This document shows positions 18,979 to 33,878 of a stretch of DNA of 64,000 bases, in pieces (position 1 is the stretch's first letter; every line of letters starts with the position of its first letter). The stretch spans positions 2,180,660 through 2,244,659 of the forward strand of contig NZ_AP018207.1 in assembly GCF_002367995.1 (NCBI RefSeq), read 5' to 3'. The notes under the pieces are model-generated. The model ran no database searches and had not been told where the DNA came from. It saw nothing but the letters and a program-made list of their open reading frames with translations. The stretch comes from Calothrix brevissima NIES-22 (GTDB taxonomy: Bacteria; Cyanobacteriota; Cyanobacteriia; Cyanobacteriales; Nostocaceae). A program made the position numbers and the translations under genes.

Positions 18979-20085
18979 GTGGTGAAAAGCTTCAATAGTC
19001 TGTTTGGCAAATCGAATAAAGGAGTCGGTATTGAACTAGCACCTGAACGTGTGAATATAGTTCAATTACGCAAACAGCGTCAAGGCTTTAAAATAGAAGC
19101 CTTAGTATCGGTAGAAGTTCCTGAAGGACTAATTACCGATGGTCAAATTGTCGATCCGCCAGCAATGGCGCTGTTAATTCAGCAAGCGCTGAATGACAAT
19201 AAAATCAAAGCTTCTCGGGTTGCGACTGCTGTACCAGGACGAGATTCAATTGTACGTTTAATACCTGTACCAGCTGAGTTAGATGATAAAGAACTGCGGG
19301 AAATGGTACTCAACCACGAAGCAGCTTTATATTTACCCTATCCCCGTGAAGAAGCTGATGTAGATTACCAAAAACTCGGCTACTTTGTAGACGAAGATGG
19401 GATAGAAAAGGTACAAGTACTATTAGTAGCTACACGTAAGGAGGTCACGGACACATACATAAATACATTTGAGCAAGCTGGATTAGAAATTGATGTATTA
19501 GAGATTAACAGTTTTGCGCTCATTCGCACAATTCGCGATCAACTGCGACAATTTGGCCCGCAAGAAGCAGCAGTATTAGTCGATATCGAGTTTGATAGCT
19601 CAGAAATCGCCATCATTGTCAATGGTGTACCCCAATTTTCGCGAACTGTACCGATAGGCACTTATCAAATGCAACATGCCTTATCAAAAGCAATGAGTTT
19701 ACCAACTACACGGGATATGGAATTGTTGCAGGGCATGGCGATTATGGCAACTCCTGTAGAGGCTGGTAAAACTGGTCTGACTGACATCAATCCGGGTATG
19801 GCAGCTATATTAAGAGTGTTGGGAGAACTAACTGACGAGCTGCGTCGTTCCATCGATTTTTATCTCAATCAGAGTGAAAACCTAGAGATAGCACAAATTT
19901 TCCTGGCTGGCCCTGGTGGTGGTTTGCAACAGCTAGATGAGTTTTTCACCCAAAGATTAAGCCTGCCAACTGCCCAAATCGATCCAATAGCATCTTTATC
20001 CTTAGAAATAAACGAAGAAAAGTATCCTGTAGTACAACGCTCTGGGTTAGCGACAGTACTAGGTCTAGGAATGAGGGAGGTTTAA
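18979..20085 (+). CDS. pilM: type IV pilus assembly protein PilM
   Basis: Actin-like cytoplasmic ATPase that binds the N terminus of PilN and links the pilus alignment complex to the motors. The 368-residue protein has the FtsA/PilM fold: GVGIELAPERVNIVQL at the start (phosphate 1 loop), VLVDIEFDSSEIAI (phosphate 2) and IFLAGPGGGLQQLDEF (adenosine motif). It opens a pilMNOQ operon, 4 bp before pilN. The start is GTG at 18979. In cyanobacteria the operon supports twitching or hormogonium motility and DNA uptake. Confidence 0.95.
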   Translation: MVKSFNSLFGKSNKGVGIELAPERVNIVQLRKQRQGFKIEALVSVEVPEGLITDGQIVDPPAMALLIQQALNDNKIKASRVATAVPGRDSIVRLIPVPAELDDKELREMVLNHEAALYLPYPREEADVDYQKLGYFVDEDGIEKVQVLLVATRKEVTDTYINTFEQAGLEIDVLEINSFALIRTIRDQLRQFGPQEAAVLVDIEFDSSEIAIIVNGVPQFSRTVPIGTYQMQHALSKAMSLPTTRDMELLQGMAIMATPVEAGKTGLTDINPGMAAILRVLGELTDELRRSIDFYLNQSENLEIAQIFLAGPGGGLQQLDEFFTQRLSLPTAQIDPIASLSLEINEEKYPVVQRSGLATVLGLGMREV

Positions 20086-20089
20086 CAGA

Positions 20090-20872
20090 ATGTACAGTCT
20101 GGATATTAACTTTCTCAAAGACCGCCCAACTTACCAAAAAAAAGCCAGTAAAAAACCTGGAATTAAATTCCCCGTTGGGAATTTAACACCGTTATATCTG
20201 GGAGTAGCATTAGGCATTTGCTTCCCTGCGGCGGCGATAGGTAGTTTGTGGTTGTTACAAGCGAAAGTAGTGGAATCAGAGCAAAAAATAGCACAACTAG
20301 ATGAGGAAAACAAGAAGTTAGACACAGAAATTGGAAATATTAACAAAATTAAAGAAGAGACTAACAAAGTTAAAGGAGAGACACAAGCTTTAGTGTCAGT
20401 GTTTGACCAAATTCGCCCTTGGTCAGCCATGTTACAAGATTTGCGCGATCGCATCCCAGCTAAAGTGCAAATTGAAAACATCAAGCAAACAGCACCTACA
20501 GCACCAGTAGCAGGTCAATCAGGAGCAAAACCAGCAGCTAATCTAGCTGGCGGCATAGAAATTACAGGAATGGCACGCTCTTTCAATGATGTCAATGATT
20601 TCTTGCTCAGTTTGCAACAGTCGAGATTTTTAAAGTCCTCAGAAAGCAAAATTGTCACAGCAGATTTAGTGGATGCACCAATACAACCAGCAGCTGCTAA
20701 TGCTAAAGAGGGTAAAAAAATTCCGCCGATTCAAGTGGTTAAATACACTATTCAATCAAGTTTGAGTGATGTTCCCGCCTCAGAATTAATCCGAGAACTG
20801 GAGCAGAAAGGCACAGTAGGATTGGTGGCACGAATTCGTAGTATGCAACAAACAGGAGTCATTGCCAAATGA
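20090..20872 (+). CDS. pilN: type IV pilus assembly protein PilN
   Basis: Bitopic inner-membrane protein of the alignment complex. The 260-residue sequence begins MYSLDINFLKDRPTYQ, carrying the conserved INFL motif that docks into PilM. A single membrane segment follows (about residues 36-60), then a periplasmic coiled coil (about 60-105) and a ferredoxin-like domain. It overlaps pilO by 4 bp (ATGA), implying translational coupling and equal dosage, as expected for PilN-PilO heterodimers. Residues about 135-155 are an Ala/Pro/Gln-rich linker. Confidence 0.93.
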   Translation: MYSLDINFLKDRPTYQKKASKKPGIKFPVGNLTPLYLGVALGICFPAAAIGSLWLLQAKVVESEQKIAQLDEENKKLDTEIGNINKIKEETNKVKGETQALVSVFDQIRPWSAMLQDLRDRIPAKVQIENIKQTAPTAPVAGQSGAKPAANLAGGIEITGMARSFNDVNDFLLSLQQSRFLKSSESKIVTADLVDAPIQPAAANAKEGKKIPPIQVVKYTIQSSLSDVPASELIRELEQKGTVGLVARIRSMQQTGVIAK

Positions 20873-21642
20873 CGGTGAGTGAAGATTTTAATTTTGCAGA
20901 AAATAATGGGGAATTAAGCGAATCTTCAGCTAGTAACAAGCTGTTGGGTATTAGTATCACCCCCCAACTGATTGGTATTGTAGTAGGGGTCTTGGGTATT
21001 GCTGGAGCCTTATATGTTGTCTTCAATATGGTAATGCCTGCTTGGGATAGCTATCAACAACAGCAAGGAAAAATTGGTGAACTACAAGGACAAGTCGATC
21101 AAAAGAAAGCCAGCCTAAAAAAAATCGATCAGGTGAAAGCTGATCTAGACCAAGCAAAACAGCAACAAGTCCAGGTTTTAAGTTTATTTGCTAGTGAAAA
21201 AACCTTAGATACATTGTTACTCGATTTGAATCGCTTAGTGGAAACTACTAATGCTCAAGTTCCTGCCACTGGTGTCAGAGGTGAACTGAAAAAATTTGCA
21301 CCAGTGTCACAAAAAGCAGAACCGATAGTTGATGGCAGTCTCGGGCTACAAGTTGATGGCAAGCTAAAACGCAGCAGCGTAAATATTCAAATTGTTGGTA
21401 CTTATGAACAAACGCAATCTATTCTGCGGAATATTGAGCGTTTACAGCCATTGTTGATCGTCAAAGATTATCAATCAACTTTACAAAGAGTACCCATTGA
21501 ATCGTCGTCAGATCAAGGTGCAAAGAAGCCAACTGCTTTTTTAACCTCAATTAATACGAATTTCCAGTTACAAGCATTAATGCCACTTACTCCAGAGGAA
21601 ATAGCGGCGGCTGTGGCGGCTGCTACCCCGCCTAAGAAGTAA
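20869..21642 (+). CDS. pilO: type IV pilus assembly protein PilO
   Basis: Partner of PilN in the inner-membrane alignment complex. The 257-residue protein has a short cytoplasmic tail, one membrane helix (about 34-55), a Gln/Lys-rich periplasmic coiled coil (about 65-105) and a C-terminal ferredoxin-like domain ending in an Ala/Pro-rich tail. It starts with an ATG overlapping the pilN stop. No pilP follows; cyanobacteria usually lack it, and the link to PilQ must be made otherwise. Confidence 0.92.
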   Translation: MTVSEDFNFAENNGELSESSASNKLLGISITPQLIGIVVGVLGIAGALYVVFNMVMPAWDSYQQQQGKIGELQGQVDQKKASLKKIDQVKADLDQAKQQQVQVLSLFASEKTLDTLLLDLNRLVETTNAQVPATGVRGELKKFAPVSQKAEPIVDGSLGLQVDGKLKRSSVNIQIVGTYEQTQSILRNIERLQPLLIVKDYQSTLQRVPIESSSDQGAKKPTAFLTSINTNFQLQALMPLTPEEIAAAVAAATPPKK

Positions 21643-21776
21643 CAGCAATTAGTCAGAAAAAAGCCAGGAAATAACCCTAATCCCCAGCCCGTCAACTCTT
21701 TATGGGTAAAACAGGTTGAAACATACCTACTCAAAAATTATTTGTCAACAAGGTTTTATTAGGTGAGGAATGAACT

Positions 21777-24194
21777 GTGAAACAGCTTCACGGTAATAAT
21801 TTATTATTGGGCACTGCCGCATTTATCTTCTTGGCAGCTCAACCGGTTTGGGCAGATATTACTCAAATTACTGACGTACAGCTCAATCCAGTTGATGGCG
21901 GAATTAATGTCGTTTTAAAAACCTCCTCAGGTTCGCGCCCACAAATTTTCACAACAAAAAGAGGTAAAGCTCTAGTTACAGATATTATTAATACTCAACT
22001 ACGTTTACCACAAGGCAATAATTTCCGTAAAGATAACCCCACTTCGGGAATTGCCTCCGTCGAAATTATTCAGCTTGATGCTAATAGCATCCGGGTGGTG
22101 GTAACTGGAAGCAATAATACCCCTAGCAATCAGCCTGTGGTGCGAAAAGATAATGGTATTACTCTCAGCTTTAGCCCTGCTGCTGGTACTACAGCCTCAA
22201 CACCACCATCGACTACACCATCTACTACTACCCCATCCCAACCGGGTCAACAGCCAGGTGTTCTAGTTCCCAATCCGGAAGTGACGATTGATGGGAAGCC
22301 TGCACAACCAGCTGGACCTGGTCAACCTGTATATCAAGGGCCGCCTTTCTTACCTAGAGCTGTAGCTCCACCAGTAGGAGATATTGCTATCTCTAATACT
22401 GATGCTTCTCCTAGTACAATTGATCTAGCTACTCAAGAACGTGTCCCGCGTTTAGTACTCAGAGATGCACCAGTGCGGGAGGTTTTATCGCTACTAGCTC
22501 GTGCAGCTGGTTTGAACCTCGCTTATATAGGTGGAGAGGGAGCAGGAGCAGCAGCAGGTGGTGCAAATCCAGGTGGACAACCCAGCTCTCAAACGATTTC
22601 TTTAGATATAGAAAATGAACCTGTACAGGATGTTTTTAATTACGTCTTGCGTTTGAGTGGTTTAGAGGCAAACCGTAGTGGGCGGACTATTTTTGTCGGC
22701 ACAAAACTGCCTACTTCTACCCGTGATACAGTGATGCGTAGCCTGCGTCTAAATCAGGTAACAGTGGGTGTGGCGCTCAACTTTTTAGTCGGTATGGGGG
22801 CAGAAAGTGCCATTAGCCGCGAACGATTAGTTACTAGTGTTAGTGCTGTTCCTGTAGGTAATTCAACCGCCGCAGTTACCCAAACTCAGACCACTACAGA
22901 AACTAAATTAGAGACTCAAAGAGTTGATTTTCAAGACTCTAATCCATTACTTAGAGGTTTACAAGCACTAGGAGACGAGCGCACTAATTCTATTACCTTG
23001 ATTGGTTCTCCCCGATTGATTGATATTGCGATGGCGCAATTAACTCAGCTTGATATCCGCCGTCGTCAAGTGGTAGTTAATGTCAAAATTGTGGATGTGA
23101 ATCTCACAGGAACCCAAGATTACAACACCAGCTTTTCTTTTGCGGCGGGGAATAACTTCTTTGCTGTTGATGGTGGTGCAGCATCTTTCAATTTTGGTGG
23201 CTCTAGACCTGCGACTGCTTCTGAAGCCGCAAGTAGTGTAACTGAAACCCCAGTTATTACCAACCCAATTACAGGAACTCCTTTTGTCAATCCCAATAGC
23301 ACTGTCAGTATTCCGGGAACTACCCCAGGTACTATAGTAGTAAGTCCAAATGGTACAACCACGAGAACCCAAAACGCTGGAACTGGAACATTTTATCAAC
23401 CTATTCCTCCGAGTAGTACCAATCCATTACAGCCAGGTTTTTCCAATATCACTCCAGCTACCGACACTGTTGTGACCCGCAATGCTGATGGAACATCAAC
23501 TGTGACACAAGGTACTAATGGTACGGTGACAACAGCTCTTCCCTCTTTATATCAATTCCCCAAACGGTTACTGGCTAGTTTGCAGGCTCAGGTGACAAAT
23601 GGTAATGCCAAGATTTTGACTGACCCGACTTTAATTGTGCAAGAAGGTCAACAAGCTCTTGTCAATCTGACTCAGGAAGTTGTGGGGAATATTACTATTC
23701 AAACAACTGACACTAATGGTGGCTCTAGAACTGAGAGAAAAATAGAAAAACAAAGAGTTGGTCTGACGTTGAATGTAAAAATTGAACGGATTGATGACAA
23801 TGGTTTTGTTTCTCTGTCGGTTGCTCCCACTGTCAGTGCGCCTACAGCTGCTGAAAACACAGGAAATGGACAAATTGTTTTAGTGTCGGAACGCTCTTTG
23901 ACTTCTGGGATGATTCGCTTACGAGATGGTCAGACGCTAATTCTCTCAGGTATTATTCAAGACCAAGATAGAACTAGTGTATCGAAGATTCCTATTTTAG
24001 GTGACTTACCTTTAATTGGTTCGTTGTTTAGAAAGACTAACAGAAGTAATGAACGCAGAGAGGTGATTGTGATGCTAACACCTCAAATTATGGATGATTC
24101 GGAACGTTCATCTTATGGCTATAACTATAATCCCAGTCCAGAGGTGCGGCAAATGTTGGAACGTCGCGGTTGGCAGCCTTCTAATAAGCGATAA
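21777..24194 (+). CDS. pilQ: type IV pilus secretin PilQ
   Basis: Outer-membrane channel for the pilus. The 805-residue protein has a signal peptide (to about residue 26, ending PVWA), then an AMIN domain (about 28-110) that binds peptidoglycan and a Thr/Pro-rich linker (about 135-195). A secretin N0-type domain (about 225-310) and N1-type domain follow, and the C-terminal secretin domain (about 600-785) has VPILGDLPLIGSLFR-like sequence near its end. A Ser/Thr/Pro-rich insertion (about 450-590) interrupts the N-domain region and looks low in complexity. The start is GTG at 21777, 134 bp after pilO. A strong intrinsic terminator at 24272-24312 ends the operon. Confidence 0.95.
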   Translation: MKQLHGNNLLLGTAAFIFLAAQPVWADITQITDVQLNPVDGGINVVLKTSSGSRPQIFTTKRGKALVTDIINTQLRLPQGNNFRKDNPTSGIASVEIIQLDANSIRVVVTGSNNTPSNQPVVRKDNGITLSFSPAAGTTASTPPSTTPSTTTPSQPGQQPGVLVPNPEVTIDGKPAQPAGPGQPVYQGPPFLPRAVAPPVGDIAISNTDASPSTIDLATQERVPRLVLRDAPVREVLSLLARAAGLNLAYIGGEGAGAAAGGANPGGQPSSQTISLDIENEPVQDVFNYVLRLSGLEANRSGRTIFVGTKLPTSTRDTVMRSLRLNQVTVGVALNFLVGMGAESAISRERLVTSVSAVPVGNSTAAVTQTQTTTETKLETQRVDFQDSNPLLRGLQALGDERTNSITLIGSPRLIDIAMAQLTQLDIRRRQVVVNVKIVDVNLTGTQDYNTSFSFAAGNNFFAVDGGAASFNFGGSRPATASEAASSVTETPVITNPITGTPFVNPNSTVSIPGTTPGTIVVSPNGTTTRTQNAGTGTFYQPIPPSSTNPLQPGFSNITPATDTVVTRNADGTSTVTQGTNGTVTTALPSLYQFPKRLLASLQAQVTNGNAKILTDPTLIVQEGQQALVNLTQEVVGNITIQTTDTNGGSRTERKIEKQRVGLTLNVKIERIDDNGFVSLSVAPTVSAPTAAENTGNGQIVLVSERSLTSGMIRLRDGQTLILSGIIQDQDRTSVSKIPILGDLPLIGSLFRKTNRSNERREVIVMLTPQIMDDSERSSYGYNYNPSPEVRQMLERRGWQPSNKR

Positions 24195-24696: not shown

Positions 24697-24996
24697 GATT
24701 TTTACTTCAATTGCGGTTGATTTATTTATTAATTTATCGGGTTGTTGATTTTGGGAGGGTTGGTGAAACCGAACTTTGAAGGCGGGGTTTTTTCTACTGA
24801 GGCTTGGAAGGAGGAAATTTATTTTTTTAACGCAAAGGTACGCTGAGGTTGGCGCGAAGGTACGCTGAGGTTTTGTAAAAATCTTCAACTTTCGTTAACT
24901 AACGGTTGTTATAAAACAAATGTACAGATAATACTTTGTGAGCAGATAGCGATCGCTCTTTACCACAACAGTTTCTTGAATACGGGAGTCTGCGCT

Positions 24997-26202
24997 GTGA
25001 TAGATGAAATCGACCAACTTTTGGCTGATTGGCAGCATAAAATTAATGCGGCTAGCCAAAATCTCCTGGAATTACAAGAACAGCCTACATATCAGAGGCT
25101 TTGTGGTTATTCTGGCTATAATAAAGTTATTTTGGCGGGAATTACAGCGATAAGGGTGACTCCGGCACTGGAGGCGATGAATGATTTGTTTCAATATTTC
25201 GATTTATTAGTGCAGGTGGTGGAGAAGGCGGGTAAGTTACGTCAGCAATTACCACGATTTTTAGCTAGCGCAGACAAGATTGATGAGATTAAACAACTGT
25301 TGACAGGTGCTTCCATTGAGTTACCAGCAGTACATACGCCGCTTGCACAAAGAGAATTGCTGAGTGCTACTCATACGGTAAATGCGATCGCACCTGCGGA
25401 GTTATTACAAGTGATGACTCACGCTTTTTCTGTGGCTAGAGATGCTGTTTTAGCTGTGGATGAGGCTTGGAATCATTTAGATAACATTTTGGCAGATGCA
25501 GAATTGCAAATCTACTCGCTGCAAAACTCAGCAGAATTCTTAGATAGTCAGGTTATTGATGAATTGGTGCAAATTCAAACTGCGATCGCATCTTTACATA
25601 AACGAGTAGAACAAGATCCTCTGGGGGTGAGGGTGGAGGTTGAACAACAAATTCAGCCGATGTTGGTAAAAGTGAAGTCGGTTGTTGAACAAGCACTGAA
25701 ACAACAACGTCAAATTCGCGATAGATTTGCGATCGCTCGCGATTTGTTAGAAAAATTAACTACAATCCAGGCAAATTCTCTAGTTACTTTTACGGAAACT
25801 CAGGAGAAAATCGTGGGGTATTTAATCAAATCGCCTTCATTGACGCCTGAGGAGTTAAATGCCCTGACTCAATGGTTAACTAGGTTAGAAACTAAGCTGG
25901 CGGAGGGGTTAGTCAATCCAGTTATCATCGGTTTAGAGAATTGGATCGATAAAGCTCAAGCTTACATAGCATCAGAACAACAAGTATTTACTGCTAATAG
26001 CGCCCTTTTAGCCAATCGTCAGGAGTTACGAGGACGCTTAGATGCTCTCCAAGCCAAAGCATTAGCTAAAGGATTAATTGAAGATGGCAAACTATCCGAT
26101 ATAGCTGCACAAGCAAAGCAAATTTTATACACGCGCCCCACGGCTTTAGATAAGGCGGCTGAGTTAGTCTTTCAGTATGAGAAGCGGTTGAATTGGGGCT
26201 AG
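24997..26202 (+). CDS. helical protein of unknown function, first gene of PknG island
   Basis: A protein of about 401 residues, almost entirely predicted alpha-helical and rich in Leu, Gln, Glu and Ala. It has no signal peptide, membrane segment or Cys cluster. Segments such as EVEQQIQPMLVKVKSVVEQ and RLDALQAKALAKGLIEDG suggest coiled coils. I do not recognise a family. I prefer the GTG at 24997 (VIDEIDQLL) as start; a TTG at 24976 is possible. It lies upstream of the pknG-like kinase on the same strand, separated by 392 bp of repeats including a 21-bp tandem array. By position it may be a scaffold or substrate of the kinase system; that is inference only. Confidence 0.8.
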   Translation: MIDEIDQLLADWQHKINAASQNLLELQEQPTYQRLCGYSGYNKVILAGITAIRVTPALEAMNDLFQYFDLLVQVVEKAGKLRQQLPRFLASADKIDEIKQLLTGASIELPAVHTPLAQRELLSATHTVNAIAPAELLQVMTHAFSVARDAVLAVDEAWNHLDNILADAELQIYSLQNSAEFLDSQVIDELVQIQTAIASLHKRVEQDPLGVRVEVEQQIQPMLVKVKSVVEQALKQQRQIRDRFAIARDLLEKLTTIQANSLVTFTETQEKIVGYLIKSPSLTPEELNALTQWLTRLETKLAEGLVNPVIIGLENWIDKAQAYIASEQQVFTANSALLANRQELRGRLDALQAKALAKGLIEDGKLSDIAAQAKQILYTRPTALDKAAELVFQYEKRLNWG

Positions 26203-26209
26203 GGGCTAG

Positions 26210-26263
26210 GAAGGGGGACAAGGAAGACAAGGGGGACAAGGGAGACAAGGGAGACAAGGGGGG
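26210..26263. repeat. GACAAGGGG-type tandem repeats
   Basis: Five to six copies of the 9-bp unit GACAAGGGG/GACAAGGGA/GACAAGGAA lie immediately after the stop of the helical-protein gene. Confidence 0.9.
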
Positions 26264-26289
26264 TAATGAGTTGATGATGGCTATTTAGG

Positions 26290-26541
26290 CTTTTATCTCG
26301 GAAGTTGAGCCTTTTATCTCGGAAGTTGAGCCTTTTATCTCGGAAGTTGAGCCTTTTATCTCGGAAGTTGAGCCTTTTATCTCGAATGTTGCACCTTTTA
26401 TCTCGGAAGTTGAGCCTTTTATCTCGAACGTTGCACCTTTTATCTCGAACGTTGCACCTTTTATCTCGAACGTTGCACCTTTTATCTCGAACGTTGCACC
26501 TTTTATCTCGGAAGTTGAGCTTTTTATCTCGAAATTTCACC
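26290..26541. repeat. 12-unit, 21-bp tandem array
   Basis: Twelve back-to-back 21-bp units share CTTTTATCTCG and end in one of two variants: GGAAGTTGAGC (units 1-4, 6, 11) or GAA(T/C)GTTGCAC (units 5, 7-10); unit 12 is divergent. There are no spacers, so it is not a CRISPR. Being a multiple of 3, it keeps frames open on both strands (LLSRxLx or RDKRxNx heptads), but it has no gene-like start context. It separates the helical-protein gene from the kinase gene. A CAAATGA repeat follows at about 26551-26582. Confidence 0.95.
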
Positions 26542-26594
26542 CTTATCTCTTCACAAATGACAAATGACAAATGACAAATGACTAGGAGAACTAA

Positions 26595-28772
26595 ATGAAC
26601 GGCGATCGCTGTACGAGAAATGCCTGTACTGGCATGATTGAAGATGGTTACTGTAATGTCTGTGGGTTGGCGGCGATAAAATCTGCCAATGTCAGCCAAA
26701 AGCAAAGTGTAAATGTGACTGCGCGAAGTTCTCCGGTGACTACGGGTACGGGTTCTTCGCCGTTAACTAACCGTTCTAAGGGTTCGCGGCGTACTAGTGG
26801 TACTTCTGCTCGCAGTAGTCGCAGACAATTAGGTGCTGGGTTAATCTCTGTACCAGAATTACCTTCCACCGATCCAGAAAAAGCGCTTCTGCTTAACCCA
26901 ATGGTGCCGGAGAATAAGCGTTTTTGTAGTAATTGCAATCACCAGTTGCGCCGGGAAAAGGGATTTTGTAGTAAGTGCGGACAGAAATATTCGTTTATTC
27001 CTAGTCTGAATCCTGGGGATTTGGTTGTGGGGCAATATGAAGTCAAAGGCGCGATCGCTTATGGTGGTTTAGGCTGGATTTATTTAGGTTTTGATAAAAC
27101 TCTTTCTCGCTATGTTGTTTTAAAAGGACTGCTAAACACTGAAGATGCAGCTAGTGCAGCCGTAGCGGTAGCCGAAAGACAATTCCTCGCAGCCGTAAAA
27201 CACGCCAATATCGTGGGAATTTACAATTTTGTGAATCACGGTACTGAGGGTTTTATTGTCATGGAATATGTTGGCGGTAAAACTCTCAAGGAAATTCGTA
27301 AAAGTCGGGGGACTTTACCTGTAGCGGAAGCGATCGCTTACATTCACCGCATTCTCAGTGCTTTTGCTTATTTACATTCTTTAGGCATGGTATATTGCGA
27401 CTTCAAACCAGACAATATTATGGTTGAAGGCGGCGATGTGAAGCTAATTGACTTGGGTGGCGTGCGCCGAATTGAGGATTTAGATGGCGATATTTACGGT
27501 ACAGTAGGTTATAGCGCCCCAGAAGCAGGTGAAGGGCCGACAGTCGTATCCGATTTGTTTACTGTTGGCAGAACTTTGGCGGTATTGCTGACTAATATTA
27601 AAGGCTTTAGTAAAGAACACCTCTATACATTACCCAGTCCCGAAGAAGAACCGTTATTTGGGCAACAAGAATCTCTGTATCGCTTCTTAATTAAAGCCAC
27701 TGCGGAAAATCCTGACGATCGCTTTCAATCAGCCGATGAAATGGCGGATCAATTATTGGGTGTACTGCGGGAAGTTGTCGCCCTGGAAACAAATATTCCT
27801 CGTCCGGCTGCTAGCCATGTATTAGGGGGAGATATGCTAGCGCTGACTTACGGTGGTAGTTTGGAGCCAATTAAACCAGAATATGAACAATTACCGTTAC
27901 CAATCCTAGATTCTAACGATCCTGGATTTAATGCAGTGCTAAATGCTAGCGCGATCGCCGATCCGATAAAACGGGCGATGAGTTTAGATGAAGTCGTCAA
28001 GCAATTTCCTGATTCCCGCGAAGCATTATTGCGGTTAGCCAATAGCTTGATTGAGGGGTTTAATTTTGCCGAAGCAGAGCAAACCTTAGCCAAACTCGAA
28101 GCTAAAGATCCTTGGGATTGGCGAATATTTTGGTATCGGGGGCGGGCTTTAATGGCGCACAATCAAGCACAAGCCGCGCAAAAAGCTTTCGATCAAGTGT
28201 ATTTTGACTTACCGGGAGAGTTAGCACCCAAATTGGCGCTAGGTTTAGCCGCAGAACAGGCGCAAAATTATCAACTAGCAATTAAGATGTACGAGTTAGT
28301 TATCCGTACAGATCCCAGCTATGTCACAGCAGCCTTTGGTTTAGCCCGTTGTTTGTCAGCAACAGGCGATCGCCAAGGTGCAGTCGCCGCCTTAGGAAGA
28401 GTACCGCCAACCTCTAGTTTATTTATGCGATCGCGAGTCGAAATTGCTCGGACTTTAATCAACCGCGATCGCGATATTCCCAGTTTTCAAGAACTACAAA
28501 CAGCTTCCTCTGCGATTGAAACCCTGACTTTAGAAGGAATGGATCGCTATCGGCTCATTCAACAAGTTCTAGAAACAGCCTTAAATTTACTTAACTCAAA
28601 GCAATTAAAAGTCACTCCTAGTATGAAGATTTTAGGACAACCCATGCAAGAAAAACATCTGCGCCAAGGACTAGAAAAAGCCTTGCGAGACATGGCACAC
28701 CTAGCCACTGGTAGAGAGAAAATTCACTTAGTTGATGAAGCAAATCGCATACGCCCAAGGACTTTAATTTAA
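26595..28772 (+). CDS. pknG: PknG-type serine/threonine protein kinase
   Basis: A soluble 725-residue kinase with the full domain order of actinobacterial PknG. There is an N-terminal zinc ribbon (C6, C11, C20, C23), a Ser/Thr-rich linker (31-80), the motif NPMVPENKRF and a rubredoxin-like ribbon (C111, C114, C125, C128). The kinase domain (148-390) and a TPR region (about 460-700) follow. PknG signatures are near-verbatim: NPGDLVVGQYEVKGAIA, YGGLGWIYL, VLKGL (K177), YCDFKPDN (D269), LIDLGG (D286) and LPGELAPKLALGL. The Arg of HRD is replaced (YCD), so it is a non-RD kinase not needing activation-loop phosphorylation, as in PknG. AGGAGA precedes the ATG. In mycobacteria PknG phosphorylates the FHA protein GarA to control glutamate and TCA metabolism. 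Confidence 0.93.
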   Translation: MNGDRCTRNACTGMIEDGYCNVCGLAAIKSANVSQKQSVNVTARSSPVTTGTGSSPLTNRSKGSRRTSGTSARSSRRQLGAGLISVPELPSTDPEKALLLNPMVPENKRFCSNCNHQLRREKGFCSKCGQKYSFIPSLNPGDLVVGQYEVKGAIAYGGLGWIYLGFDKTLSRYVVLKGLLNTEDAASAAVAVAERQFLAAVKHANIVGIYNFVNHGTEGFIVMEYVGGKTLKEIRKSRGTLPVAEAIAYIHRILSAFAYLHSLGMVYCDFKPDNIMVEGGDVKLIDLGGVRRIEDLDGDIYGTVGYSAPEAGEGPTVVSDLFTVGRTLAVLLTNIKGFSKEHLYTLPSPEEEPLFGQQESLYRFLIKATAENPDDRFQSADEMADQLLGVLREVVALETNIPRPAASHVLGGDMLALTYGGSLEPIKPEYEQLPLPILDSNDPGFNAVLNASAIADPIKRAMSLDEVVKQFPDSREALLRLANSLIEGFNFAEAEQTLAKLEAKDPWDWRIFWYRGRALMAHNQAQAAQKAFDQVYFDLPGELAPKLALGLAAEQAQNYQLAIKMYELVIRTDPSYVTAAFGLARCLSATGDRQGAVAALGRVPPTSSLFMRSRVEIARTLINRDRDIPSFQELQTASSAIETLTLEGMDRYRLIQQVLETALNLLNSKQLKVTPSMKILGQPMQEKHLRQGLEKALRDMAHLATGREKIHLVDEANRIRPRTLI

Positions 28773-28778
28773 GTCAGC

Positions 28779-28876
28779 AGACAAGGGGGACAAGGAGGAC
28801 AAGGAGGACAAGGAAGACAAGGAGGATAAAGACAACTAACAACTGACAACTGACGACTGACAACTGACAACTGACT
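28779..28876. repeat. GACAAGGGG and CAACTGA tandem repeats
   Basis: Nonamer repeats followed by about six copies of the CAACTGA class fill nearly all of the 107-bp gap between the kinase and phosphatase genes. They reach to within 4 bp of the phosphatase ATG. Confidence 0.88.
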
Positions 28877-28879
28877 ATT

Positions 28880-29839
28880 ATGCAATGCCCAAAATGTGGT
28901 ACTTCAGTCCTAGTAGGGGACAAATTTTGTGAGGAATGCGGTACACCTTTAACCGCTAGTAAACCGCCAACAAATACACAAGGCTGTGAAAAATGCGGTG
29001 CAGGAATAGAAGCCATTGATACTGATGGTTACTGTAGTAATTGCGGATTTCGCAGAGAAGCGAAAAAGAGCGATCGCATCGAAATAATTATTAATTCACA
29101 GTTAGCGGGAATGAGCGATCGCGGTTTGAGGCATCACCGCAATGAAGATTTTTTGGCTCTACACCAGATTAATGACTCCCAGGTAAATATTCTCGTGGTT
29201 TGCGATGGTGTTTCTAGTGCGGAGCAACCAGATTTAGCGGCTCGGAATGCTGCGGAAACTGCGGCTGGGAAATTAGCTCATGTTTGGCAAAGTGGAGAAA
29301 AACCAGAGTTAGCGATTAAATCCGCCTTTGCTGCGGCGCTCGATTCTGTATGTAATATTCCTTATATATCTGGTGTAAATTCCGATCCACCATCAACTAC
29401 TATTGTGGCTGCTATTGTGTATAACCGTACCGTTACTATTGGTTGGTTAGGTGACAGCCGCGCTTATTGGATTTCTGGTAAGGCTTCCCAACAATTAACT
29501 CGGGATGATTCCTGGTTATATGAGGTGGTAGCCGCAGGAGAAATGAGCGAAGCTGAAGCGAGAAAATCTCCTCAAGCTCATGCAATTACTCGTTGGCTAG
29601 GAGCAGATGCAGTGGCTGATGCTACACCTTCAATAGTTAATTTTACGATTCCTGAGTCGGGATATTTGCTTTTATGTAGTGATGGATTATGGAATTATGC
29701 TCCAAAAGCTGAGGAATTAGCTCAGTTATTGGCGCGATCGCCTGGTAAGGATGCGATTAGTGTCTCTCGGAGTTTGGTGGAGTTTGCGCGACAAGGTGGC
29801 GGACATGACAATATTACGGTGGCTGTTTTGGCGTTATAA
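28880..29839 (+). CDS. PP2C-type protein phosphatase with two zinc ribbons
   Basis: Metal-dependent Ser/Thr phosphatase, 319 residues. Two zinc ribbons open it (C3, C6, C17, C20 and C36, C39, C52, C55), the second reading DTDGYCSNCGF, close to the kinase's EDGYCNVCGL. The PP2C domain (about 70-319) has MSDRGLRHHRNEDF, VVCDGVSS, GWLGDSRAYW, LLCSDGLWNYA and the final GGHDNITVAVL, so the metal-binding Asp residues are all present and it should be active. No strong ribosome binding site lies before the ATG because repeats abut it. It is the likely antagonist of the kinase encoded just upstream. No membrane segment is present. Confidence 0.94.
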   Translation: MQCPKCGTSVLVGDKFCEECGTPLTASKPPTNTQGCEKCGAGIEAIDTDGYCSNCGFRREAKKSDRIEIIINSQLAGMSDRGLRHHRNEDFLALHQINDSQVNILVVCDGVSSAEQPDLAARNAAETAAGKLAHVWQSGEKPELAIKSAFAAALDSVCNIPYISGVNSDPPSTTIVAAIVYNRTVTIGWLGDSRAYWISGKASQQLTRDDSWLYEVVAAGEMSEAEARKSPQAHAITRWLGADAVADATPSIVNFTIPESGYLLLCSDGLWNYAPKAEELAQLLARSPGKDAISVSRSLVEFARQGGGHDNITVAVLAL

Positions 29840-30116
29840 GCTCAATGATTGGGGAATAAATCAGTTCGCAAAATCCGAAAATCTTAATTTATGGAACCGC
29901 CAAGACGCCAAGGACGCGGAGAGAAGAAGCTACTTAATTGTTAGAGTCATCGCGTTATTTCTGAGGTGTTTGAGGAACGAACCGCAAAGACGCGAAGTAC
30001 ACGAAGAAGAAAATGAAGAAAGAAAAGAAGAAATATTAAGAATGAGTAAACTCATCAAAATTTTGGCGATAAACCACTAGCCCCTAGTCCCTAGTCCCTA
30101 GTCCCTAACCCCTAAT
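29840..30116. repeat. 277-bp gap made of dispersed repeats
   Basis: It contains two decayed repeats of the type GGAACCGCCAAGACGCCAAGG and AACCGCAAAGACGCGAAG, separated by about 90 bp. The run CTAGTCC/CTAGCCC (about five heptamers) then reaches to within a few bases of the vWA gene start. The first type also occurs in the MITE-like element at 7713. No gene is seen. Confidence 0.7.
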
Positions 30117-31394
30117 ATGTCAAACCAATTCAAAGCGGAAGTTTTTCAAAACCAATATTTACACGAAGGTGCTAAAGAAGTTCATGCCATTATGACTGTC
30201 AGTGTAGAAAAGGGTGATGGTGTACCCGTTTCTAGTAGTAATGACAGACTTTTTGGCATTATCTGTGATGTCTCTGGTTCAATGGGCGGCGGTAAAATTC
30301 ACGCTGCTAAGGATGCGATGGTAAAAGTTGTGAGTTTGTTACCAGAGGATGCTTACTTTTTTATTGTCACGGGTTCTAGTAAAGCGAGTGTAGTTTTCCC
30401 GGTGTCTAAAGCTACACCTGAAAAGAAAGAAGAAGCGATCGCCGCAATTAAAAAAATCCTTGCTAATGGTGGTACGCTGATGTCTAAGTGGTTAACTGAG
30501 GCACTGGCACAGTTTAACAAGAAACCCGATGCTGTGCGCCAAGCTTTACTACTTACCGATGGTATGAACGATGATACAGATGAGCAAGCACTGAACAAAA
30601 TTTTACAGCAGTGTGAGGGTGTGTTTCAGTGTGATTGCCGGGGTGTGGGGACTGATTGGCGGGTTGCCCAACTCCAACAAATCGCTGGTAAACTGCTGGG
30701 AACGACTGATATTATTCCCGATGCGGCAATGATTGAAGCTGATTTTCAGGCAATTTTAGCAAAAGCTATGAGTAAGAATGTCAGCGATGTCACTATGCGT
30801 TTGTGGACTCCCCAAGGAGCTAAAGTACTATTTTGCAAACAGGTGAGTCCAGATATTGTGGATTTAACACATCGTAGTAAAGCAGTTAAACCACAAATGT
30901 TGGAATACCCTACTGGTGCTTGGGGTAGGGATGAGTCCCGCGACTACCACTTTTGCATCGAAGTTAATGCCGGTAATGTGGGTGATGAAATGTTAGCCGG
31001 TCGCGCTAGCTTAGTTTACACCGTTAATAGTGTAGAAACTAAAGTTGCAGAAGCTCGAATTTTGGCAACTTGGACAGATGACGAAGCCAAATCTACCAAA
31101 ATTAATAAGCGAGTTGCTCACTACACCGGACAAGCAGAACTGGCGCAATCAATTCAAGAAGGATTAGAAGCCCGTGCAAAGGGGGATATTGAAGTTGCTA
31201 CCGCCAAATTAGGTAAAGCTGTGAAATTAGCTCATGAATCTGGGAATGAAGCCACAGCCAAACTGCTCAAAACTGTTGTTGATGTGGAGGATGCACCTAC
31301 AGGTACAGTGCGGTTGAAACGAGATGTAGCTAAGGAAGATGCGATGGCATTAGAAACTCGTTCTACAAAAACTACTCGCATTCCTAAGTCTTAG
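30117..31394 (+). CDS. von Willebrand factor A domain protein
   Basis: A 425-residue cytoplasmic protein with a vWA domain at about residues 40-235. The MIDAS metal site is complete: DVSGS at 51-55, the Thr of NGGTLM near 122 and the Asp of LTDGMND near 148. The rest is a beta-rich middle region (about 240-345), a helical segment reminiscent of TPR (about 345-400) and a short tail with several Thr next to basic residues (TGTVRLKR and TRSTKTTRI). vWA proteins scaffold metal-dependent complexes. Between a kinase/phosphatase pair and an FHA protein, it could be substrate and scaffold, with phospho-Thr in its tail read by the FHA domain. That role is inferred from context. Confidence 0.92.
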   Translation: MSNQFKAEVFQNQYLHEGAKEVHAIMTVSVEKGDGVPVSSSNDRLFGIICDVSGSMGGGKIHAAKDAMVKVVSLLPEDAYFFIVTGSSKASVVFPVSKATPEKKEEAIAAIKKILANGGTLMSKWLTEALAQFNKKPDAVRQALLLTDGMNDDTDEQALNKILQQCEGVFQCDCRGVGTDWRVAQLQQIAGKLLGTTDIIPDAAMIEADFQAILAKAMSKNVSDVTMRLWTPQGAKVLFCKQVSPDIVDLTHRSKAVKPQMLEYPTGAWGRDESRDYHFCIEVNAGNVGDEMLAGRASLVYTVNSVETKVAEARILATWTDDEAKSTKINKRVAHYTGQAELAQSIQEGLEARAKGDIEVATAKLGKAVKLAHESGNEATAKLLKTVVDVEDAPTGTVRLKRDVAKEDAMALETRSTKTTRIPKS

Positions 31395-31625
31395 TACCGC
31401 TTTGTATAAGGTCGTAACTTTTTTAACGCAAAGGAACGCGGAGGTTAGCGCAAAGTTTCGCAGAGTATTTCCCTAGCCAATTCGCTATGAATTAATGAAA
31501 TGGTGTATTTAGTGAGTGAAGAAAGGCAGAGGATAGGGGGGACAAGGAGGATAAGGGAGACAAATGACAAATGACAAATGACAAATGACAAATGACTATT
31601 GACTATTGACTATTGACTATTGACC
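31395..31625. repeat. 231-bp gap made of dispersed and tandem repeats
   Basis: It holds a TTTAACGCAAAGGAACGCGGAGG-type dispersed repeat (also near 24823), then GACAAGGAGG, CAAATGA and TATTGAC tandem repeats. The last directly abut the ATG of the FHA gene. No other gene is present. Confidence 0.8.
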
Positions 31626-32285
31626 ATGCCTATATATAAATGTCCTAAAGGTCACGAATCCACAGAATCAGATTTTTGTTCGGAGTGTGGTGCCAAAATT
31701 CTGGGTATACCTGCACCAAAAATAGCTAAAACGTCGGTAAATAGTGAAATCTGTCCAGCTTGTAGTGCGCCTCACGAGGTTGACAGTGGGGACTATTGCG
31801 AGATTTGTGGTTATAACTTTGTTACTCAAGCACATGGAGAATTAGCGATCGCTAAAATTCCCCAAGAACAAAAGGTAACACAAAAACAAGCATCGGTTTC
31901 TACTCCCCCATCCCCGATTATCGGTTGGCAATTGGTAGTGACAATCGATCCATCTCTGCGTCATCCCGAAAGCCCAGAACCCCCAACAGCACAAGCGCCG
32001 ATAGTTTTTCCATTAGAAAAGGAAACTAACCTCATCGGTCGCAATAGTCAAGTTAGGGCTATTCATCCAGAAATTGCTCTAGATTTTGACAGCGCAGTTT
32101 CTCACCGCCATGCTTTATTAAACCGTCAAGCAGATGGGACATTCACCCTGCGCGATATTGGTTCTTCTAACGGTACACAATTCAAAGGCGTAGAGTTAAA
32201 ACCAATGGTAGATATTCCTCTACAAGATGGTGATGAATTCACCTTAGGACATTGGACAAGAATTGCGATCGCAGCAATTCGCTGA
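31626..32285 (+). CDS. FHA-domain protein with two zinc ribbons
   Basis: A phospho-threonine reader of about 219 residues. The N terminus carries two zinc-ribbon-like clusters: YKCPKGHES with DFCSECG, and CPACSAP with DSGDYCEICGY. A Pro-rich linker follows, then a C-terminal FHA domain (about 125-219) with NLIGRNSQ, the phospho-binding SHRHALL, and SSNGTQFKG. In mycobacteria the FHA protein GarA is the substrate and effector of PknG. This protein is the counterpart in domain type, though its N terminus is ribbons rather than a GarA-like phosphorylatable tail. I start at ATG 31626, since the TTG two codons earlier belongs to a TATTGAC repeat. GlnX-like gene follows after 70 bp. Confidence 0.92.
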   Translation: MPIYKCPKGHESTESDFCSECGAKILGIPAPKIAKTSVNSEICPACSAPHEVDSGDYCEICGYNFVTQAHGELAIAKIPQEQKVTQKQASVSTPPSPIIGWQLVVTIDPSLRHPESPEPPTAQAPIVFPLEKETNLIGRNSQVRAIHPEIALDFDSAVSHRHALLNRQADGTFTLRDIGSSNGTQFKGVELKPMVDIPLQDGDEFTLGHWTRIAIAAIR

Positions 32286-32309
32286 ATTAGTCAGGAATAG
32301 GGAAATAAA

Positions 32310-32346
32310 AAATGACAACTGACTACTGACAACTGACAACTGACTA
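32310..32346. repeat. CAACTGA heptamer repeats
   Basis: About five CAACTGA/CTACTGA units lie between the FHA gene and the membrane-protein gene, ending 9 bp before its ATG. Confidence 0.85.
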
Positions 32347-32355
32347 CTAACCAAT

Positions 32356-33735
32356 ATGAGTAAAATTATTGCAGTTTCAAATAAAGCAATTCGCGGACTG
32401 ACGACACCGCAATTGCTTAAAGGTGGTTTATATCTAACCTGGCTAACCAGTGTCTTACTACTAATTAGTATTATTAGCGGAGTGCAAGCACAGAGACAGG
32501 CGATTAAAACTGTCGGACAAGATTCCACCCCCAGTATCGTCACGGCGCAACGCCTAAAAGATGGGCTGGCGGGGATGGATGCTAATGTTGTGAACGAACT
32601 CCTAGTACCAACAGGACAAAATCAAGATGCTATTAAAGGTTACGAAGAACGATATTTAAGAGTTACGGAAAGGCTAGTAGCTGCGGCTGAAAGTATCTCA
32701 TTTGGAGATATAGAACGCAAACAAATTGAAACTATGCAATTGGCGTTAGGTAACTATTTAGCTAAAATCCAGCAAGCGAGAGATTCTCACGCCCGTGGGG
32801 ATAATAATGCCATGCTGATTGCTTATCGCGCTGCTAGCGAAATCATGGATAAAACCCTTCTCCCCGCAGCCGATGAGTTAGATAAGGTAAATCTGCAAGC
32901 TTTAGATGCTACTTATACCCAGAAAAAAGTTGCTACACAAAATTATATATTTTCTATTTTCCTAATTGGTTTAGCACTGATTATTTTGCTGGGTTGGCTA
33001 CAAATATTTCTCAGCCGACGGATGCGTCGTACTTTTAATCCAGCGCTGTTATTAGCTACCGCGATCGCGCTTGGCTTGTTAAATTATACAGCTGGCGCGT
33101 TGTTATCAGCTTCCCAAAACCTGAGAGTAGCGACAGAAGATGCTTTTAGTTCTATGCATACCTTACGCCAAGCTAGAGCGATCGCCTATATTGCCAATAC
33201 TGCCAAAAGTCGCTATTTACTGGACACAGCTTTTGCTAGCAGCCACGAACAAGCTTTTGTACAAAATATCGCCAAAGTTGCCCAAGTACCGCCAGGAAAG
33301 ACTATTGAGTCAGTAGTAGAAGCTTATAAATTTGAGTATGCAAAAGTCGATGGATTTACAGGTTACTTAGCTGATGAACTGAAAAATATCGTTTTTCCAG
33401 GTGAAAAAGCAGCGACATTAGCAAATCTGGCTAGTTTGGGAACTTATTTGACAATCGATCGCCAAATTCGCGATTTAGAAAAAAGCGGCAAACATCAAGA
33501 AGCGATCGCTTTATCCTTAGGTAATAACCCAGGACAGTCAATTTGGGCGTTTGAACAGTTGAAAGCAACTAATCAAAAAGCTTTTGATATTAACCAAGCT
33601 GCTTTCGATAAAGCAATTGGGCAAGGCTTTCGCGATCTCGAAGGTTTTGAAATTAAAGCTACAGTAGCGCTGAGTGCGATCGCGCTTTTAACATTATTTG
33701 GGCTAACACCACGTATCAAAGAGTACTTTGTTTAA
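32356..33735 (+). CDS. four-helix membrane sensor, GlnX-like
   Basis: A 459-residue integral membrane protein. Four membrane segments are clear (about residues 25-43, 197-216, 229-250, 434-452). They enclose two mostly helical extracytoplasmic domains of about 150 and 180 residues, with short cytoplasmic ends. This topology, size and position in a pknG cluster match GlnX, the mycobacterial membrane protein that relays amino-acid sensing by the binding protein GlnH to PknG. I see no glnH-type gene beside it. The assignment rests on topology and context, not on a motif. Alternatively it is a chemoreceptor-like helical sensor of another ligand. It ends the island; repeats and a convergent kinase gene follow. 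Confidence 0.75.
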   Translation: MSKIIAVSNKAIRGLTTPQLLKGGLYLTWLTSVLLLISIISGVQAQRQAIKTVGQDSTPSIVTAQRLKDGLAGMDANVVNELLVPTGQNQDAIKGYEERYLRVTERLVAAAESISFGDIERKQIETMQLALGNYLAKIQQARDSHARGDNNAMLIAYRAASEIMDKTLLPAADELDKVNLQALDATYTQKKVATQNYIFSIFLIGLALIILLGWLQIFLSRRMRRTFNPALLLATAIALGLLNYTAGALLSASQNLRVATEDAFSSMHTLRQARAIAYIANTAKSRYLLDTAFASSHEQAFVQNIAKVAQVPPGKTIESVVEAYKFEYAKVDGFTGYLADELKNIVFPGEKAATLANLASLGTYLTIDRQIRDLEKSGKHQEAIALSLGNNPGQSIWAFEQLKATNQKAFDINQAAFDKAIGQGFRDLEGFEIKATVALSAIALLTLFGLTPRIKEYFV

Positions 33736-33801: not shown

Positions 33802-33878
33802 AGTAGGGAAGGGAAGACAAGGAGGACAAGGGAGATAAATGACTGTTGACTGTTGACTGTTGACTGTTGACTGTTGAC
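33802..33878. repeat. nonamer and GTTGACT repeats
   Basis: GACAAGGAGGACAAGG followed by about five GTTGACT heptamers fills the gap between the convergent GlnX-like and histidine-kinase genes. Confidence 0.88.

Follow-up and report, generated by a model that had tools for sequence, protein, structure and literature searches.

What does a PknG-type kinase do in a cyanobacterium, and with which partners does it work? The question is raised by a 64,000-nucleotide stretch of the 9.26-Mb genome of Calothrix brevissima NIES-22 (contig NZ_AP018207.1, positions 2,180,660 to 2,244,659; hereafter the window), in which six co-directional plus-strand open reading frames (ORFs) at 24976-33735 encode, in this order, a helical protein, PknG, a PP2C-type phosphatase, a vWA protein, an FHA protein and a GlnX-family membrane protein. 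An initial annotation had described these six genes and their domains from the letters alone, and the ORFs together with Pfam and NCBIfam searches confirm that description. Our answer, to which we give a probability of about 65%, is that the locus would be one functional unit, a six-protein PknG-type phosphorylation circuit in which GlnX would sense without a linked binding protein and whose output would not be the mycobacterial one.

Judging from the accessible parts of earlier publications, a three-gene operon is conserved in actinobacteria (PMC6069109), and in Corynebacterium glutamicum and Mycobacterium smegmatis GlnX and the TPR domain of PknG are required for PknG function, and the autophosphorylated PknG N-terminus recruits FHA substrates (PMC8546545, PMC6069109, PMC9769921). 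Lisa et al. (2021) reported that PknG is mostly restricted to Actinobacteria, with Ktedonobacter and Calothrix as exceptions; the homologues from these two genera bear a rubredoxin domain, like the window kinase, and the accessible part of that paper describes the kinase alone, without its neighbours (PMC8546545). The word PknG does not occur in the text of a 2007 survey of cyanobacterial kinases (PMC2176072), and a publication that combines the terms FHA, PP2C and vWA is, as far as its accessible part goes, a domain survey (PMC1262709). The window protein does pass a GlnX subfamily model already curated at NCBI, but we found no description of the extended six-gene module in the literature searched, subscription papers lying outside that search.

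The kinase is, judged from its sequence, a true PknG. It consists of an N-terminal four-cysteine zinc ribbon, a Ser/Thr-rich linker, a rubredoxin domain (PknG_rubred, PF16919, 69.5 bits against a cut-off of 28.5), a kinase domain (Pkinase, 113.6 bits) and, C-terminal to the latter, a TPR domain (PknG_TPR, PF16918, 229.5 bits against a cut-off of 27). Its best solved relative is PknG 2pzi, aligned over residues 77-723, and the PknG signatures that had been read by eye from the rubredoxin region to the TPR part are thus borne out by the models. The closest PknG, at 97% identity, is that of Tolypothrix sp. FACHB-123. In an alignment of 65 PknG rows, the catalytic Asp, Lys and Asn and the DxG motif are invariant, the ATP-site Lys is retained in 64 (the remaining row is truncated), the rubredoxin cysteines C111, C114, C125 and C128 in 62 to 64, and the N-terminal four-cysteine ribbon in 59 to 60, the mycobacterial-type stretches L124-L126 being without it (L and G numbers are our handles for stretches and genomes). 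Grouping of the kinase away from PknG, which would have told against the initial annotation, did not occur: in a tree of 87 kinase rows, built by a quick method with distant, long-branched outgroups, it falls inside a 68-row PknG clade that stands apart from other Ser/Thr kinases with a support of 98 in the Shimodaira-Hasegawa-like approximate likelihood ratio test (SH-aLRT). Within PknG, a 54-row clade (SH-aLRT 99) unites the sequences from beyond Actinomycetota and Dormibacterota, so the cyanobacterial kinase does not appear to have been acquired recently from mycobacteria. A TTGTGSSP motif N-terminal to the rubredoxin domain, present in 28 of 73 PknG sequences (26 cyanobacterial and 2 acidobacterial), suggests a candidate FHA docking site.

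The three proteins encoded next also keep their functional residues. The phosphatase combines a PP2C_2 domain (PF13672, 46.4 bits) with a zinc ribbon (PF13240), and its metal-binding Asp residues are retained in all 47 rows. The vWA protein matches VWA_3 (PF13768, 70.2 bits) and VWA_3_C (PF18571, 74.4 bits) and aligns with 4fx5 over residues 5-423; the DxSxS of its MIDAS is found in 50 of 51 rows, with a gap at the site in the remaining one, and the Thr and Asp are found in all 51. For the FHA domain (52.8 bits), the pThr-binding Gly-Arg pair is kept in 48 of 48 rows, the Ser and the Asn in 45 each and the His in 42. Zinc ribbons are thus present on the kinase, the phosphatase and the FHA protein, and the catalytic and binding residues are retained across the spread of the module.

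The last gene of the set encodes a protein that scores 295.3 bits with the GlnX subfamily model NF058618 (cut-off 250) and only 43 bits with the kinase G-activating equivalog NF041460 (cut-off 780), which the GlnX of L124 passes with 859.6. Hydropathy and charges give it four transmembrane (TM) helices, with two helical regions (about 157 and 183 residues) on the extracytoplasmic side and a short, basic loop of some 11 residues in the cytoplasm; this is the topology of C. glutamicum GlnX, for which four TM segments have been demonstrated according to the accessible part of PMC9769921. An AlphaFold (AF2) model of the window protein has a predicted local distance difference test (pLDDT) score of 91.1 and yielded no fold match at E<=0.001.

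The first gene encodes a protein with no Pfam or NCBIfam family above cut-off. Its AF2 model (pLDDT 90.6) is almost all alpha and has no fold match in the Protein Data Bank (PDB) at E<=0.001, and the alignment shows a conserved C-terminal ELRGRLDALKAKAL motif. Its PDB profile matches were rejected as resembling coiled-coil noise, and so was a kinship with TelA (profile-comparison probability 0.24%). A helix-PknG fusion was likewise discarded: one ORF of L129 spans both, but the helical profile matches only positions 3-211 of its 404, and an additional helical match lies in a separate ORF, the gene being split between frames.

The grouping of these six genes is not chance. Among 217 Nostocaceae genomes, PknG_TPR occurs in 36, the helical protein in the same 36 and GlnX in 35 of them, missing only from G358, which is 54% complete; the hypergeometric P values for the coinciding presence sets are 6e-42 for PknG and the helical protein and 1e-39 for PknG and GlnX, in a calculation that ignores the relatedness of the genomes. 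Within one genus, presence is patchy (three of eight genomes), and five others are without PknG, the helical protein and GlnX alike. In G444, G445, G446 and G462, GlnX lies on a different contig from PknG, where either the assembly is broken or the genes are truly separated. A scan of the species-genome collection retrieved 77 loci, 60 of them with a PknG of at least 300 bits on the module profile (the other 17 were excluded from the module count), and all six genes share one stretch in 33 of the 60, one or more being absent from the other 27. A second set, which overlaps the first in species and comprises 35 Nostocaceae stretches plus G035, has all six genes in 29 of 36.

A contig edge near pknG cuts short many of the incomplete stretches. 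A whole-genome search for GlnX and vWA covered 16 of the 27 incomplete loci, and L082, L083 and L085, which are among the other 11, were covered by a separate search. For the 16 stretches without glnX, GlnX was found elsewhere in the genome for 14, and only in G648 (3.0 Mb) and G478 (Propionibacteriaceae) was it not; 13 of these stretches also have no vwa gene, and a vWA gene was present elsewhere in all 13 genomes. Five stretches (L056, L059, L067, L074 and L076) reach at least 3 kb upstream and at least 7 kb downstream of pknG without the glnX or vwa genes sought, so parts of the module are unlinked there. The genes are co-inherited and usually adjacent, and they keep their functional residues; the initial annotation had made its case depend on co-occurrence in related genomes, and the six genes do form a conserved unit. 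A count of 5 among 292 sampled genomes had pointed to rarity within the phylum but was set aside: it scored no more than the top candidates of each genome, and the scan of the collection recovers many more species.

The presentation of the module as that of a cyanobacterium proved too narrow. The complete or almost complete set is found in Cyanobacteria, Acidobacteriota, a planctomycete, Trinickia, Bacillota, Dormibacterota and some Actinomycetota, and one Calothrix genome (L057) carries it in full. Most of the complete cyanobacterial and acidobacterial stretches, as well as planctomycete L088, have the order helical-pknG-pp2c-vwa-fha-glnX. Pseudanabaena L046 and the uncultured L048 have pp2c-vwa-fha-glnX-helical-pknG, while Trinickia, two Bacillota and G035 have vwa-fha-glnX-helical-pknG, to which Trinickia and G035 add pp2c at the end. 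All of these are circular permutations of one order.

Among actinobacteria, PknG_TPR occurs in 8 of 149 sampled genomes of the phylum to which Frankia G477 belongs, and the surroundings vary. The stretches L124-L128, which we call mycobacterial-type by their tree position and, for L124, also by its NF041460 score, read glnX-SBP-pknG in four of five cases, where SBP denotes a solute-binding protein gene, and carry pknG without other module genes in the fifth. Tsukamurella possesses the kinase, a glutamate-type SBP and a protein that matches the GlnX profile. Nonomuraea gerenzanensis L182 shares all six families with the window and, by the module profiles, reads helical-pknG-pp2c-vwa-fha-glnX-SBP, that is, the window order with an extra GlnH-type SBP_bac_3 gene adjoining glnX; Pfam confirmed its SBP, vWA, FHA and PknG proteins. 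All six families also occur in L130 and L131 (glnX-SBP-helical-pknG-pp2c-vwa-fha) and likewise in L129, with its split helical gene, but here the cluster begins with glnX and the SBP gene. Dormibacterota L082 reads pknG-pp2c-vwa-fha-glnX-SBP, with no helical gene on the stretch. The Propionibacteriaceae stretches L090 and L091 have pknG, pp2c, vwa and fha, and L092 has pknG, vwa and fha; no GlnX turned up in the genome to which L090 belongs.

Several PknG_TPR and GlnX matches occur within one Frankia genome (Frankia sp. R82, G477; L117, L119, L122, L123 and L137-L139), and in its stretch L137 GlnX adjoins two SBP genes with no PknG nearby. Large Embleya and Streptomyces plasmids (L183, L184) carry a GlnX gene with the other module genes not within about 9 kb; GlnX was found in four plasmid records altogether. 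In L135 and L136 (the actinobacterial genomes G512 and G617), a second, divergent PknG-like kinase stands beside a likewise divergent vWA gene, and the other partners are absent.

The gene trees suggest how the module reached some of its hosts. In all six, Trinickia groups with the cyanobacterial G035 (L143), joined by the two Bacillota where the gene is present, and the support of this group (SH-aLRT) is 99 for the helical protein, 100 for PknG, 100 for vWA, 97 for FHA, 93 for GlnX and 99 for PP2C, where it comprises two rows. With the same cross-phylum group in six trees, the set appears to have moved into these organisms as a unit. The reduced trees contain 13 hand-picked cyanobacterial loci, and the Trinickia, G035 and Bacillota rows are long-branched in several of them, as are those of Dormibacterota, Propionibacteriaceae and L078. 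The trees also disagree in detail, Acidobacteriota not being one clade in several. The presence of the permuted module in G035 reflects either cross-phylum transfer or a contaminating contig; with a completeness of 87% and a contamination of 4%, this genome could well contain a foreign contig here.

How, then, might the six proteins work together? We infer the wiring of the circuit and the scaffold role of the helical protein as follows. GlnX, as a four-TM sensor, would pass a signal from outside the cytoplasm on to the PknG TPR domain, and PknG would autophosphorylate its Ser/Thr-rich N-terminus; the FHA protein would then dock on that N-terminus, either being phosphorylated itself or carrying substrates. 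These steps are modelled on the PknG literature. By its domain type, the PP2C protein would reset the phosphorylation state, and the helical and MIDAS-bearing vWA proteins, to judge from their co-inheritance with the rest, may assemble kinase, phosphatase and reader at GlnX. We consider the circuit a well-supported hypothesis. The phosphorylation circuit beyond the mycobacterial set that the initial annotation had proposed stands as regards a writer, an eraser, a reader and a sensor with intact functional residues, but a carry-over of the mycobacterial output is not supported.

The last point bears on the alternative that survives best, in which the organism would have the full actinobacterial glutamate/aspartate pathway, with GlnH supplied from another locus and the FHA protein acting as the GarA/OdhI equivalent that controls nitrogen metabolism. 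That pathway is established in actinobacteria according to the accessible parts of PMC6069109 and PMC9769921, and the window shares with it a true PknG with rubredoxin, kinase and TPR domains, a GlnX of the same four-TM family and an FHA protein as the likely partner; moreover, the genome has six SBP_bac_3 matches. In contrast to the PknG-GlnX-GlnH-GarA/OdhI set, however, the cyanobacterial cluster adds the PP2C, vWA, helical and zinc-ribbon FHA proteins, its PknG has the extra N-terminal zinc ribbon, and it is without GlnH and without the ETTS acceptor. No GlnH-type SBP gene was found in the window or in 91 other stretches outside the Actinomycetota, in a scan that left out Frankia L087 and Dormibacterota L082, the latter, set apart, having one. 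Since the module has no such companion gene in the stretches beyond Actinomycetota and Dormibacterota, GlnX in cyanobacteria most likely either detects its ligand directly or relies on an unlinked partner to do so. As described, the window protein falls far short of the equivalog cut-off, and the GlnX proteins of the GlnH-bearing lineages included in the tree (L082, L124-L126 and L129-L131) form a clade of their own (SH-aLRT 99).

The output side points in the same direction. The acceptor motif [ED]T[TV][ST] occurs in 0 of 51 module FHA proteins, looser TTS/TVS strings occurring in six, and the OdhI model NF041660 finds nothing over its cut-off genome-wide, with 11 weak FHA matches, one of which is the module's own FHA gene. 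Because of its zinc-ribbon N-terminus and the missing ETTS acceptor, the FHA protein is not a demonstrated GarA equivalent. The E1 component of 2-oxoglutarate dehydrogenase (TIGR00239) gave no match in the source genome at E<=1e-5 and was matched in 7 of 14 control genomes; if E1 is truly absent, the output cannot be its inhibition. We consequently regard the full actinobacterial pathway as rather unlikely here, while a putative role of the module in nitrogen and carbon balance is possible.

Several observations weigh against the six-protein circuit that we prefer. Desmonostoc L073 and Bacillota L085 have no PP2C gene; the helical gene is missing from L052, L077 and L082 (in the stretches only, with no genome-wide search) and GlnX from the whole genome of G478; in planctomycete L088, glnX is split by a stop; and GlnX occurs without PknG or other module genes nearby in L183, L184 and Frankia L137-L139. 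With TTGTGSSP confined to 28 of 73 kinases, a specific FHA docking site is not general. The likeness of the GlnX model to the Vc1313 amino-acid receptor domain 8bsa is weak (E 0.3, TM-score 0.76 by target length) and may serve as a hint only. As to input and output, the SBP profile was built from three sequences, many of the scanned stretches break off where a contig ends, distant E1 or SBP genes may escape first-look filters, and any of the six SBP_bac_3 proteins encoded at other loci could act in trans as a partner of GlnX.

The closest analogue in make-up is the TerY-P triad, which comprises, according to the accessible part of PMC11090510, a vWA protein, a PP2C phosphatase and a Ser/Thr kinase with a zinc ribbon. 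The locus could accordingly be a stress or conflict module of this kind, that is, a metal- or stress-responsive switch rather than a nutrient sensor. Here, too, kinase, PP2C and vWA are the same trio of domain types encoded together, zinc ribbons occur on kinase, phosphatase and FHA protein, a TelA gene lies near the module in three loci, and the distribution is patchy. The kinase, however, is of another family: that of TerY-P has a C-terminal zinc ribbon or OB-fold, whereas the window kinase has the rubredoxin domain and ends in PknG_TPR. The module also includes a membrane sensor of the GlnX family, an FHA reader and the helical protein, which the triad does not. The domain libraries gave no match of a TerY or defence model to the vWA protein (a comparison with models only, not directly with TerY sequences), and PADLOC at E<=1e-5 matched none of the helical, vWA, FHA and GlnX proteins, its kinase and PP2C matches being generic, so that a known defence system was rejected as well. 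We think a TerY-P-like switch unlikely. That the genes form a mobile operon, travelling together without working together, is very improbable: such an operon would fit the patchiness within one genus (three of eight genomes) and the cross-phylum clade in six of six gene trees, but the genes are co-retained where they are unlinked (the five long stretches), their active sites are kept, and PknG at E<=1e-60 occurs on plasmids only in five records, all actinobacterial, one of which is an 11.85-Mb Nonomuraea record.

The layout of the locus is given in Table 1. The intergenic gaps in the window measure 70-392 bp, and each contains short tandem repeats; heptamers and 9- or 21-bp tandem repeats are also present at 28780-28875, 30077-30114, 31529-31624, 32313-32348 and 33840-33878. 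Across module loci, the five neighbour pairs have median gaps of 24-97 bp, as computed with ORFs counted from the first possible start. No RNA families or tRNAs were found in the window.

Table 1. Features of the PknG locus, in window positions.
Feature	Position	Strand	Basis or remark
Helical protein, about 400 aa	24976..26202	+	start TTG 24976 or equally good GTG 24997
Tandem-repeat arrays, helical gene to pknG	26211..26582	.	21-bp unit x 11.5, heptamers
PknG-type Ser/Thr kinase	26595..28772	+	PF16919, PF00069, PF16918; 2pzi E 5.3e-139; PknG clade in tree
PP2C-type Ser/Thr phosphatase with N-terminal zinc ribbon	28880..29839	+	PF13672, PF13240
vWA protein with intact MIDAS and VWA_3_C domain	30117..31394	+	PF13768, PF18571; 4fx5 E 1.5e-103
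FHA protein with N-terminal zinc-ribbon region	31620..32285 (ATG at 31626)	+	PF00498 52.8 bits
GlnX-family four-TM membrane protein	32356..33735	+	NF058618 295.3 bits, hydropathy and charges

Directly upstream, at 18979-24194, lie four plus-strand genes that, from their translations, we take to resemble pilM, pilN, pilO and a pilQ-type secretin. The flanks of the module in 36 loci contain 279 ORFs, which include nine clusters common to more than one organism group; two of these are the SBP gene and a TelA gene, and the remaining seven stand at varying positions. TelA (PF05816) lies near the module in Trinickia (Burkholderiaceae, L084:3984-5207), Bacillota (L085:837-2000) and Propionibacteriaceae (L090:4438-5829), and a three-sequence TelA profile found no further TelA among the ORFs of the stretches up to L175.

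Taking the window together with its relatives, we offer a broader reading, which is tentative and, to our minds, more doubtful than probable, namely that the six-gene module may be the basic PknG system across several phyla, of which the mycobacterial and corynebacterial PknG-GlnX-GlnH set would be a reduced three-gene branch. Outside Actinomycetota and Dormibacterota, GlnX would itself be the receptor, and kinase, phosphatase, FHA, vWA and helical proteins would make up a writer-eraser complex docked at the membrane, whose output would have nothing to do with 2-oxoglutarate dehydrogenase. Whatever its history, the conserved set identifies testable missing components for PknG, namely a phosphatase dedicated to it, a phospho-reader and two partners that are still uncharacterised, and it uncouples PknG signalling from the input (GlnH) and the output (2-oxoglutarate dehydrogenase) for which it is best known. 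The recurrence of the six genes in very different bacteria suggests that the known three-gene mycobacterial pathway represents a smaller form of a more widespread signalling system.

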